NCBI RefSeq assembly: GCF_040932485.1
Contig: NZ_JBFRBH010000001.1
Location: forward strand, 3,460,212 to 3,524,211
Source of the DNA: Gymnodinialimonas sp. 202GB13-11
GTDB taxonomy: Bacteria; Pseudomonadota; Alphaproteobacteria; Rhodobacterales; Rhodobacteraceae
Length of the DNA stretch: 64,000 nucleotides
Direction: 5' to 3'
Shown here: piece after piece, positions 53,128 to 58,132 of the stretch
Position numbering within the stretch: position 1 is the first letter of the stretch
Layout of the letters: each line of letters opens with the position of its first letter
The notes under the pieces: generated by a model
The model's input: the letters and a program-made list of their open reading frames with translations, nothing else
Database searches by the model: none
Told to the model about the DNA's origin: nothing
Position numbers and translations under genes: made by a program

Positions 53128-53604
53128 ATGGCCAAGAAACCTGAGAACCCAAATTATAAGGTGATCGCCGAAAACCGGCGTGCGCGTTTCGATTATGCGA
53201 TCGAAAGCGATCTTGAGGTTGGTATGATCCTTGAAGGGTCCGAGGTCAAAAGCCTTCGCGCGGGCGGATCCAACATCGCCGAGAGCTACGCCGAGGTGAA
53301 GGATGGCGAGCTTTGGCTCGTGAACTCCTACATCGCGCCCTACAAGCAGGCAAAGACGTTCCAGCATGAGGAAAAGCGGCGGCGCAAACTGCTCGCCTCC
53401 AAACGCGAACTCTCGCGGCTTTGGAACGCCACGCAGCGTGAGGGCATGACGCTTGTGCCGCTGGTCATGTACTTCAACCACAAAGGCTTCGTGAAGATGA
53501 AGATCGGCGTGGCCAAGGGTAAGAAGAACCAGGACAAGCGCGAGACGTCCGCCAAGCGCGACTGGAACCGACAGAAGCAGCGTCTGCTGAAGCAGAACGG
53601 CTGA
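53128..53604 (+). CDS. smpB: SsrA-binding protein SmpB
   Basis: 158-residue partner of tmRNA in trans-translation. Family markers: [40 protein letters not shown] and the basic C-terminal tail [14 protein letters not shown], which probes the empty mRNA channel. The usual dapA-smpB linkage of alphaproteobacteria is kept. No tmRNA gene was recognised here. A second rescue factor, arfB, is at 57713. Confidence 0.95.
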
Positions 53605-56791: not shown

Positions 56792-57409
56792 ATGACCCGT
56801 ATCCTGCCCGGCATCCTTGCCATGGCGGCCATTGTCGTCGCCTCGAATATCCTTGTGCAGTTCCTCTTCGGCCAATGGCTGACCTGGGGCGCGTTCACCT
56901 ATCCGCTGGCCTTCCTCGTGACCGACATCATGAACCGCGTCTACGGCGCGGCGCAGGCGCGGAAGGTTGTGTTTGTGGGCTTTATCGTGGGCGTTGTGTG
57001 TTCGCTGATCGGCACGCAGATCATGGGTGAGTTCGGCCCGCTGGTCACGCTGCGCATCGCGCTTGGCTCAGGCATCGCGTTCCTGACGGCGCAGTTGCTG
57101 GACGTTGCCATCTTCGACCGGTTGCGGAATGGTGGATGGTGGCAAGCCCCTGTTTTCTCAAGCGTAATTGGATCGAGTGTCGACACAGCTTTGTTCTTCT
57201 TCATCGCGTTTTCGGGCGCTTTGGTGAGCGTTCTTCCGGGCGATGTGGCCTGGGCGAATGAGGTTCTGCCGATCCTAGGCGTGGGTCCTGAAGCCGCTTT
57301 GTGGGTGTCGCTGGCGATCGCCGATTGGGGTGTGAAACTTGCCCTCGCATTAATCGCCTTGATCCCTTTCCGCCTCATCACACGGCGGTTTGTGGCACAG
57401 GTTGCGTAA
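56792..57409 (+). CDS. yhhQ: Queuosine-precursor transporter (YhhQ/COG1738 family)
   Basis: 205-residue membrane protein with about six helices. NILVQFLFG, WGAFTYPLAFLVTDIMNRVYG (first 20 residues near 32-51) and the late Asp in WGVKLALAL match the family, which imports preQ0/preQ1 for tRNA queuosine. The 92-bp leader shows no recognisable preQ1 riboswitch. The gene ends just before the mini-ORF transcript region. Confidence 0.88.
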   Translation: MTRILPGILAMAAIVVASNILVQFLFGQWLTWGAFTYPLAFLVTDIMNRVYGAAQARKVVFVGFIVGVVCSLIGTQIMGEFGPLVTLRIALGSGIAFLTAQLLDVAIFDRLRNGGWWQAPVFSSVIGSSVDTALFFFIAFSGALVSVLPGDVAWANEVLPILGVGPEAALWVSLAIADWGVKLALALIALIPFRLITRRFVAQVA

Positions 57410-57463
57410 TTTCTTTTGACATCCACAAAATCTGTGGCAGGCTGGGGATAACAGCAACCAATC

Positions 57464-57480
57464 GAAAGGAGGTGATCCAG
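57464..57480 (+). promoter_or_regulatory. Full-length Shine-Dalgarno complementary to the 16S rRNA 3' tail
   Basis: GAAAGGAGGTGATCCAG is the exact complement of the typical alphaproteobacterial 16S 3' end (CTGGATCACCTCCTTTC, 17 nt). The core AGGAGGT ends 6 nt before the GTG start. Ordinary genes in this window use 4-6 complementary bases. Confidence 0.75.
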
Positions 57481-57536
57481 TGTCTAGAAAGGTATTGGAG
57501 AAGTGTGACGGGACAACTTGGGAGGCGCGCCTCTAG
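57480..57536 (+). CDS. 18-codon mini-ORF with extreme ribosome-binding site
   Basis: Frame GTG..TAG encodes MSRKVLEKCDGTTWEARL. Support: 6-nt spacing from a 17-nt Shine-Dalgarno and location between a possible -35 (TTGACA, 57416-57421; no convincing -10 seen) and a strong terminator at 57610. No signal peptide, membrane segment or run of regulatory codons. It may be a leader peptide whose translation steers RNA folding, a ribosome-titrating decoy, or a true micropeptide. Not recognised from any family I can name. Confidence 0.55.
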   Translation: MSRKVLEKCDGTTWEARL

Positions 57537-57609
57537 GGCAAACCCTTGGGCGCAGCGCCCATCCCAAGGTGGTATATCCTAACCGATCCCACCTCCTGAA
57601 CTTTCGAAA

Positions 57610-57634
57610 GGGTCGCCCACGGGCGGCCCTTTTT
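57610..57634 (+). terminator. Rho-independent terminator between the mini-ORF and arfB
   Basis: GGGTCGCC-CACG-GGCGGCCC (one U-G pair) followed by five T. A CTTTCGAAAG palindrome directly precedes it. It would give a discrete transcript of roughly 180-200 nt or attenuate arfB. Confidence 0.85.
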
Positions 57635-57712
57635 CGTGCCAAATTCGGGGGAAAGCAGCGTAAAGAAGCCGTAGTGAACCTGTAGTTCTTTTGTAGTTAC
57701 ATCGGAGCCGAC

Positions 57713-58132
57713 ATGCCCCTGCGCATATCCGACAGCATCGAGATCGAGGATTGGGAGATCACGGAGCAGTTCGTGCGCGCCTCGGGGCCGGGGGGGCAGA
57801 ATGTGAACAAGGTGTCCTCCGCCGTGGAGCTGCGGTTCGAGGCGGAGCGGTCGCCGGCGTTGTCGGGGGCGGTGAAGGCGCGGCTACGGCGGATCGCGGG
57901 GCGGCGGTGGACGAAGGACGGGGCGCTGGTGCTTCAGGTCTCGGAGGAGCGGTCACAGGCGCGAAACCGCGAGATCGCGCGGGAGCGGTTGGCGGAGCTG
58001 ATCCGGCGGGCGCTGGTGGTGCCGAAAAAACGGCGGCCGACGCGGCCCACACGGGGGTCGGTGGAGCGGCGGCTGAAGGCGAAGAAGGTGCGCGGCGAGG
58101 TAAAGGGGCTGCGGGGCCGGGTGGAGGAATGA
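57713..58132 (+). CDS. arfB: Peptidyl-tRNA hydrolase / ribosome rescue factor ArfB
   Basis: 139-residue release-factor-like protein that frees ribosomes stalled without a stop codon. The catalytic GGQ is in SGPGGQNVNKVSS (about residues 25-37). A basic tail RPTRGSVERRLKAKKVRGEVK (first 20 near 103-122) inserts into the mRNA tunnel, as in YaeJ. Length equals E. coli ArfB. GGAG lies 7 nt before the ATG. TGTAGTT occurs twice 11 bp apart at 57681 and 57692 in its immediate upstream region. Confidence 0.93.
   Translation: MPLRISDSIEIEDWEITEQFVRASGPGGQNVNKVSSAVELRFEAERSPALSGAVKARLRRIAGRRWTKDGALVLQVSEERSQARNREIARERLAELIRRALVVPKKRRPTRPTRGSVERRLKAKKVRGEVKGLRGRVEE

Follow-up and report, generated by a model that had tools for sequence, protein, structure and literature searches.

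A divergent relative of the CC2171 RNA family joins an overlong Shine–Dalgarno sequence to a mini-ORF of conserved length

The window, a 64,000-nucleotide stretch of the genome of Gymnodinialimonas sp. 202GB13-11 (Rhodobacteraceae), contains a compact element between a yhhQ-like gene for a queuosine precursor transporter upstream (56792-57409; PF02592 and TIGR00697) and arfB, the gene for an alternative ribosome rescue factor, downstream (57713-58132; NF006718 above cut-off). Judged from the window sequence, it has the appearance of a small stand-alone RNA gene, and its parts, like both neighbours, lie on the forward strand. A promoter-like −35 hexamer, TTGACA (57416-57421), and a −10-like hexamer, CAGGCT (57438-57443), are set apart by a 16-nt spacer that holds an inverted repeat, CCACA-AAATC-TGTGG (57423-57437), as a putative operator, and transcription would start near 57450. 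An overlong Shine–Dalgarno (SD) sequence (57464-57480), identified by 16S comparison and duplex energies as a 17-nt complement of the 16S rRNA 3′ end, ends on the first G of the GTG start (57480-57482) of a mini-ORF (57480-57536) with 18 codons (VSRKVLEKCDGTTWEARL) and a TAG stop (57534-57536). Alignments of relatives define four helices: P1 joins the SD core GGAGGTG (57468-57474) to 57590-57596, P2 joins 57477-57483, including the first bases of the start codon, to 57492-57498, P3 joins 57514-57522, in codons 12-15 of the ORF, to 57563-57571, and P4 joins CGG at 57509-57511 to 57583-57585. The 3′ arm of P1 is part of an anti-SD strand that mimics the 16S tail, CACCTCCT...TTTCG (57590-57606; fold and alignments), of which CACCTCCT occupies 57590-57597, 116 nt downstream of the SD core. 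A predicted intrinsic terminator, a hairpin with T5, follows at 57607-57634, where a simple terminator scan listed none. A sequence-only reading of this DNA had described the GTG start, the 18 codons and the anti-SD 116 nt after the SD, all of which are present, and a strong intrinsic terminator, which appears in the fold and has counterparts, as a hairpin and T run, downstream of 131 of the 148 elements analysed below. The gap between terminator and arfB is occupied by a GTAGT-type repeat array with a period of 11 bp (57658-57701); this stretch is matched at six further sites in the same genome, and some relatives carry arrays of other words (GTATA, GTACA) at that position. smpB lies about 4 kb upstream of the element (53128-53604), and these two ribosome rescue genes are less than 5 kb apart.

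At Rfam gathering thresholds the window has no match. A sensitive scan of 57380-57720 aligned the element with RF01867 (CC2171) over model positions 1-159 at 40.0 bits and E 3.2e-7, below the gathering threshold of 75 bits, with the alignment resting for the most part on the first 30 nt and on the terminator and with much of the middle skipped. The element is related to the CC2171 sRNAs but has diverged from them; the sequence-only reading had recognized no named family. Searches of one open-access library returned no function for the RNA and, among the papers listed, no mention of 'CC2171', and RF01867 occurs there in two papers as bare table entries that, in the accessible parts of those articles, describe no function, ORF or SD. 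Searched against 289 genomes of the class, the RF01867 model gave 9 matches above threshold and 61 at E 0.001 or better. By BLASTN the element matches 38 of 61 genomes, its own included, and its 5′ module matches 30 of 37 genomes of its own family (none in G015, G016, G019, G025, G026, G027 or G029). Of 385 class genomes, 87 contain the motif AAGGAGGTGRTCNNRTGNC, nearly always as a single copy, compared with 5 of 385 for a mirror control; the match in L165 opens a long ORF and was set aside. Three matches were found among 274 genomes of another class of the phylum, that of G448 (probably Gammaproteobacteria), all with short ORFs and, on visual inspection, terminator-like hairpins. The SD of the other-class elements L237, L249 and L250 (probably Gammaproteobacteria) begins UAAGGAGG. 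A 200-genome sample of the phylum yielded five matches outside the class, of which L237 looks real and L238-L241 are long ORFs of one kind rather than this RNA. Among Rhodobacteraceae, no element was seen in the 400 bases inspected of L057 and of L061 or in 330 bases of L078. The motif is also present in six viral contigs; a similar element of 14-16 codons is found in L257, L258 and L260, the element of L259 has 33 codons and that of L262, near a contig end, 21, and L261 reads 71 codons. Phage origin was rejected as a reading; the flanks of the viral-contig elements may be those of phage or of host.

The predicted fold of 57416-57634 reaches −91.5 kcal/mol (z −4.1; none of 200 shuffles attains this value) and pairs the SD with the anti-SD. 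Run unguided on 49 Rhodobacteraceae sequences, RNAalifold recovered the pairing of SD with anti-SD, a hairpin at the start codon, the ORF stem P3 and the short P4. With three filled-in pairs, this structure leaves 92.5% of 1225 cells paired, compared with 34.6-51.9% when partners are slid by 1-3 columns, and contains 84 double-changed cells, compared with 29.2 (sd 7.7) in shuffles. That alignment had been filtered on a 3′ motif, and the analysis was repeated on 64 sequences without the filter: 87.8% of cells are paired (38.1-54.2% when slid) and 64 are double-changed (25.6, sd 7.9, when shuffled). A slide of −1 in the larger set gives 67 double-changed cells to the structure's 64, but pairs only 54.2% of cells; together with the fall of P3 to 71.0%, this indicates that P3 is partly out of register in the 64-sequence alignment. 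Helix by helix, the cells paired in the 49 and the 64 sequences amount to 96.8% and 99.1% for P1, whose seven pairs change on the partner side only, 96.9% and 96.1% for P2, 95.9% and 95.3% for P4, with both-side changes in two and then three of its three pairs, and 85.0% and, unfiltered, 71.0% for P3, with both-side changes at six of nine pairs and in up to 23 of 49 sequences at a single pair. Just outside P1, C replaces A or G in 12 of 74 loci, and the neighbour of the anti-SD is G in 7 of these 12, as against 1 of 48 loci with A. Through this C:G co-change one base beyond P1 the inner helix is lengthened or kept while the 16S match is shortened, and in Rhodobacteraceae loci with a tail match reduced to about 11 nt the internal helix is often one pair longer. 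The conservation in close relatives that the sequence-only reading had proposed as a check is thus found for the SD, the ORF frame with its stop, the SD:anti-SD helix and the terminator, and the covariation it proposed for the SD/anti-SD pairing is seen at the outer base of a conserved helix. The alternative pairing it envisaged fares less well: the CCTTGGG:CCCAAGG stem is present in the window, but in relatives only 56.7% of its cells are paired, compared with 85.0% for the rival ORF-arm stem in the same alignment, and as a conserved switch it was set aside. A small stop-codon hairpin, with 88.4% of cells paired, does no better than shuffles and was dropped. In folds with the SD or start region freed, the only ones examined for antitermination, the terminator stem persists.

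The built-in anti-SD is lineage-specific and does not extend to a general design. In single-sequence folds of 51 Rhodobacteraceae elements the SD core is paired with a post-stop strand at a mean of 0.92 (shuffled 0.69), whereas in 97 elements from outside the family the mean is 0.61 against 0.72 in shuffles, so that the SD is rather open there; folding these 97 brought out no common anti-SD. In 43 of them, codons 2-6 pair with a post-stop strand, usually near the terminator, at a mean probability above 0.5, compared with a shuffle mean of 1 in 97. Since a common anti-SD is missing and the early-codon helix is confined to part of the set, no single conserved output strand emerges. A separate arrangement is seen in L212, L244, L257, L258 and L260, whose ORFs of 14-16 codons carry GTCACCTCGCTG...GATC/GTC within the ORF; the anti-SD is placed elsewhere than in Rhodobacteraceae, and pairing with the SD is predicted in L212 and L244.

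The 17 nt of GAAAGGAGGTGATCCAG (57464-57480) reproduce exactly the complement of the 16S 3′ terminus of three genus mates (L253, L254 and L255), and the same 17-nt identity holds for one further member of the family (L256) and two of the class (L251 and L252). In the element's own 4.0-Mb genome AAGGAGGTGATCC occurs once, at the element itself, and the 16S end is not readable in the assembly. GCGGYTGGATCACC gave a single match, 1.5 kb into L247, where the bases lack a 16S context, and GCGGYTGGATCACCTCC matches 6 of 41 genomes, its own not among them, from which we conclude that 16S sequences are absent or masked in many of the assemblies searched. The duplex of the SD with a 16-nt 16S tail amounts to −29.9 kcal/mol (ViennaRNA). 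Scored over a uniform 20-nt region, the SD reaches −24.9 kcal/mol, compared with −19.0 for the runner-up among 903 SD-like start triplets in the window and −15.1 for the best SD among its 185 ORFs of at least 100 codons. About 9.7 kcal/mol is needed to open the SD, and its duplex with the 16S tail returns about −29.9; hiding alone would therefore not exclude the 30S subunit at equilibrium. These energies predict that ribosome entry would be favoured in the window RNA, with the closed form acting as a kinetic or competitive gate at most. A tail-matching run of at least 15 nt is found in 98 of 145 alphaproteobacterial elements, a set on which the selection motif alone imposes about 11 nt of match. 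The base preceding AAGGAGG is A in 128 of these 145 and T in all three elements from another class, in agreement with 16S tails UUUC and UUA, respectively. The GATCC part of the match is lost in 14 of 74 Rhodobacteraceae loci, where about 11 nt of pairing remains, so that a whole-tail match is not strictly needed; the proposal that the SD is complementary to the entire 16S tail stands as an exact 17-nt complement to the 16S of six genomes and gives way at these loci.

An SD duplex far stronger than that of any other start-like site in the window could make the RNA a ribosome decoy, which would tie up 30S subunits and lower initiation elsewhere when abundant. The extended-SD rpsU mRNA of Flavobacterium is indeed described, in the available part of one study, as forming unusually stable initiation complexes (PMC9976891). 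A decoy would, however, need neither the conserved stop codon nor the covarying ORF stem, its SD is predicted to be hidden in Rhodobacteraceae, and because almost every matching genome has one copy, the RNA would need to be very abundant; we consider this reading unlikely. The same SD could instead select a specialised 30S subunit with a fully exposed 16S tail, for example one lacking bS21, in the manner of Flavobacteriales rpsU, and so report ribosome composition or maturation. Runs of at least 15 nt in 98 of 145 elements picked for a shorter match would be in keeping with this, as would, in the accessible portions of three sources, the statements that bS21 would hinder extended SD pairing (PMC13009471), that bS21-free ribosomes favour extended SDs (PMC9976891) and that only 24.6% of Caulobacter coding sequences have SDs (PMC4117421). 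Pairing of only about 11 nt in 14 of 74 Rhodobacteraceae loci argues against it, the ORF encodes no ribosomal protein and none is named beside the element in ten sampled loci, and selection of such subunits appears quite improbable.

What is conserved in the ORF is its length, not its sequence. Read from the SD-placed start, 140 of 148 elements reach a stop after 18-30 codons, compared with 20 of 148 for each other frame; the set omits three members with 55-56 codons, with which the count becomes 140 of 151. Outside the motif set, the ORF of L055 has 17 codons and that of L069 has 13. The second codon is TCN (Ser) in all 148, partly by construction because the search motif requires C there. 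Exactly 18 codons are present in 50 of 51 Rhodobacteraceae elements, with start, Ser and stop retained while the stop itself varies (TAG 29, TGA 16, TAA 5), and codon positions 1, 2 and 3 vary alike (0.75, 0.76 and 0.77 bits). With start and stop kept and codon-position entropy equal, the peptide is for the most part unconstrained or set by pairing within the RNA, and it shows little selection. The conserved length and stop would also be expected of an ordinary small mRNA for a functional peptide of 18-30 residues, and Ser2, Leu6, Glu7, Gly11 and Thr12 are almost invariant in Rhodobacteraceae, with some synonymous change. Part of this constant stretch coincides with helices P2 and P3, however, the peptides have little in common across the class beyond Met/Val-Ser, and the overall lack of an excess of third-position change disfavours a functional micropeptide as the main product, leaving it a slim chance. 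L168, L234 and L235, outside the set, combine a similar landing module and terminator-like hairpin with ORFs of 55-56 codons and, by eye, signal-peptide-like starts. These would suit the micropeptide reading, and in some lineages the mini-ORF may have expanded to encode a small secreted protein.

Neighbouring genes are shared locally and in part of the class, with no class-wide partner. Across 73 Rhodobacteraceae element loci, which include two fetched twice (L152 = L077 and L155 = L056), a yhhQ-like gene is found no more than 200 nt upstream in 68, and arfB no more than 600 nt downstream in 65, the latter count being inflated because L038-L093 were fetched by arfB itself. arfB is 1.1 kb away in L046, L070 and L073 and 1.6 kb away in L089, and was not found in about 1.5 kb downstream of L026, L032, L034 and L156. 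None of arfB, yhhQ, smpB and the aminotransferase was found in the flanks of about 1.5 kb of 30 class loci, a search in which the positive control worked, and the largest clusters of common neighbours comprise 6 of 107 loci. One such cluster is a DUF188 (YaiI/YqxD) gene that directly follows the element in six genomes, each of a different family (L118, L119, L122, L191, L236 and L243), on the same strand as the element in five loci and inverted in L191; given this neighbour, the element may have a cis role in some lineages. In ten loci sampled for one ORF per side, the Pfam names differ from locus to locus: periplasmic binding protein and RNB domain, crescentin rod, zinc dehydrogenase, glutathione peroxidase, AnmK and TonB receptor, cyclopropane synthetase, HAD hydrolase, GSDH and integrase, or no family.

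Upstream of the SD, TTGAC is found at 45-80 nt in 38 of 51 Rhodobacteraceae elements, and the best-scoring −10 (at least 8/12) ends 21-23 nt before the SD in 26 of these 51 and in 23 of 97 others. Mean promoter scores are barely above shuffled values (7.84 against 7.37, and 7.61 against 7.18) and a plain consensus scan found no promoter, so that the evidence for one is its position. A loose form of CCACA-N5-TGTGG, a possible operator in the promoter spacer, occurs in 31 of 51 Rhodobacteraceae elements and 11 of 97 others, counts made without a shuffle control. Because a promoter-like site lies at a fixed distance and no partner is class-wide, we treat the element as a gene of its own, and with promoter-like site and terminator bracketing the RNA a role as leader of arfB is improbable. 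A cis attenuator of arfB, its terminator read through when ribosome rescue or initiation fails, is attractive with arfB within 600 nt in 65 of 73 loci of a biased sample and smpB in the window, but is very unlikely given the synteny, arfB not being close downstream in 8 of 73 Rhodobacteraceae loci and missing from the flanking DNA of all 30 class loci examined.

The reading we prefer, and hold tentatively, is that of a translation-gated riboregulator: a stand-alone sRNA gene whose ORF is read for the act and not for the product. To the computed anatomy, conservation, covariation, ORF length constraint and lack of a class-wide neighbour it adds transcription, translation, a switch and an output in trans, all of which we infer. 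An RNA of about 185 nt would be made from its own promoter and end at its own terminator, and its constant part would be a ribosome-landing module consisting of a strong SD, GTG or ATG, a Ser codon and a short ORF of kept length. A 30S subunit would pair with the SD, and initiation would open a long-range helix between the 5′ region and the strand that directly precedes the terminator. In Rhodobacteraceae this is the SD:anti-SD helix; in many other lineages it is formed by early codons and that strand. Translation of the ORF would then melt the overlapping stem, a throwaway peptide would be released and the RNA would refold; the output would be the freed 3′ strand or an altered stability of the RNA, acting in trans. 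The evidence fits an RNA built for entry and remodelling by the ribosome. Weighing against this reading are an SD that the energies above do not hide well, the lack of one output strand common to all lineages, the poorly registered part of P3 in the larger alignment and the DUF188 neighbour of six loci. Most Caulobacter ncRNAs are intergenic, with no translation shown for them in the accessible part of the genome paper (PMC4117421), which counts against translation unless this RNA is exceptional.

A further reading, to which we give a low probability, is that the RNA gauges the 16S 3′ end: it would pair with the mature tail, and initiation on it would work best for 30S subunits with an intact, uncovered tail. 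The favoured subunits would be newly matured or lacking bS21, translation of the fixed-length throwaway ORF would serve both as readout and to reset the RNA, and the device would be old in Alphaproteobacteria, with a few further examples in a second class that is probably Gammaproteobacteria. On present sequence comparisons CC2171, filed as a Caulobacter sRNA, appears to belong to a far broader group of mini-mRNAs whose SDs are very strong, in a class in which Caulobacter is reported to place SDs before only some quarter of its starts (PMC4117421). Should the ORF be translated, the element would be a natural single-gene probe of the effects of long SDs on initiation, and of whether cells read out the availability or composition of 30S subunits.

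Likeness to RF01867 CC2171 is seen in the gap-free alignment of model positions 1-30 (SD, GTG and TCT), a full-length covariance match, a similar size and a terminator directly after the closing helix. The two differ in that the element scores 40 bits against a threshold of 75 with the middle of the window RNA skipped, and in that the CC2171 closing helix joins early codons (CAUUGUCA type) to the pre-terminator strand where the window element joins SD to anti-SD. Exceptionally strong pairing of SD and 16S tail is shared with Flavobacteriales rpsU, as far as the available text of that study describes it (PMC9976891); the rpsU-type criterion is below −13 kcal/mol, and the element reaches −29.9 kcal/mol by ViennaRNA, although the energy scheme of that paper may differ. 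There the ORF encodes bS21 and the protein feeds back, whereas here a poorly conserved mini-peptide is encoded on a stand-alone RNA. In other systems, extended SDs retain ribosomes and select those poor in bS21, according to the accessible sections of two papers (PMC9976891; PMC13009471). Sinorhizobium rnTrpL and other dual-function RNAs are likewise small RNAs with a tiny ORF, rnTrpL in an alphaproteobacterium, in the excerpted account (PMC10117765), but rnTrpL is leaderless and a trp attenuator, and the element has an overlong SD and no fixed downstream gene. The Caulobacter sRNAs SisA-D also carry an anti-SD motif, which the part of the report that could be consulted takes to pair with targets (PMC12559287), whereas the anti-SD of the element pairs with its own SD, and in some lineages only.
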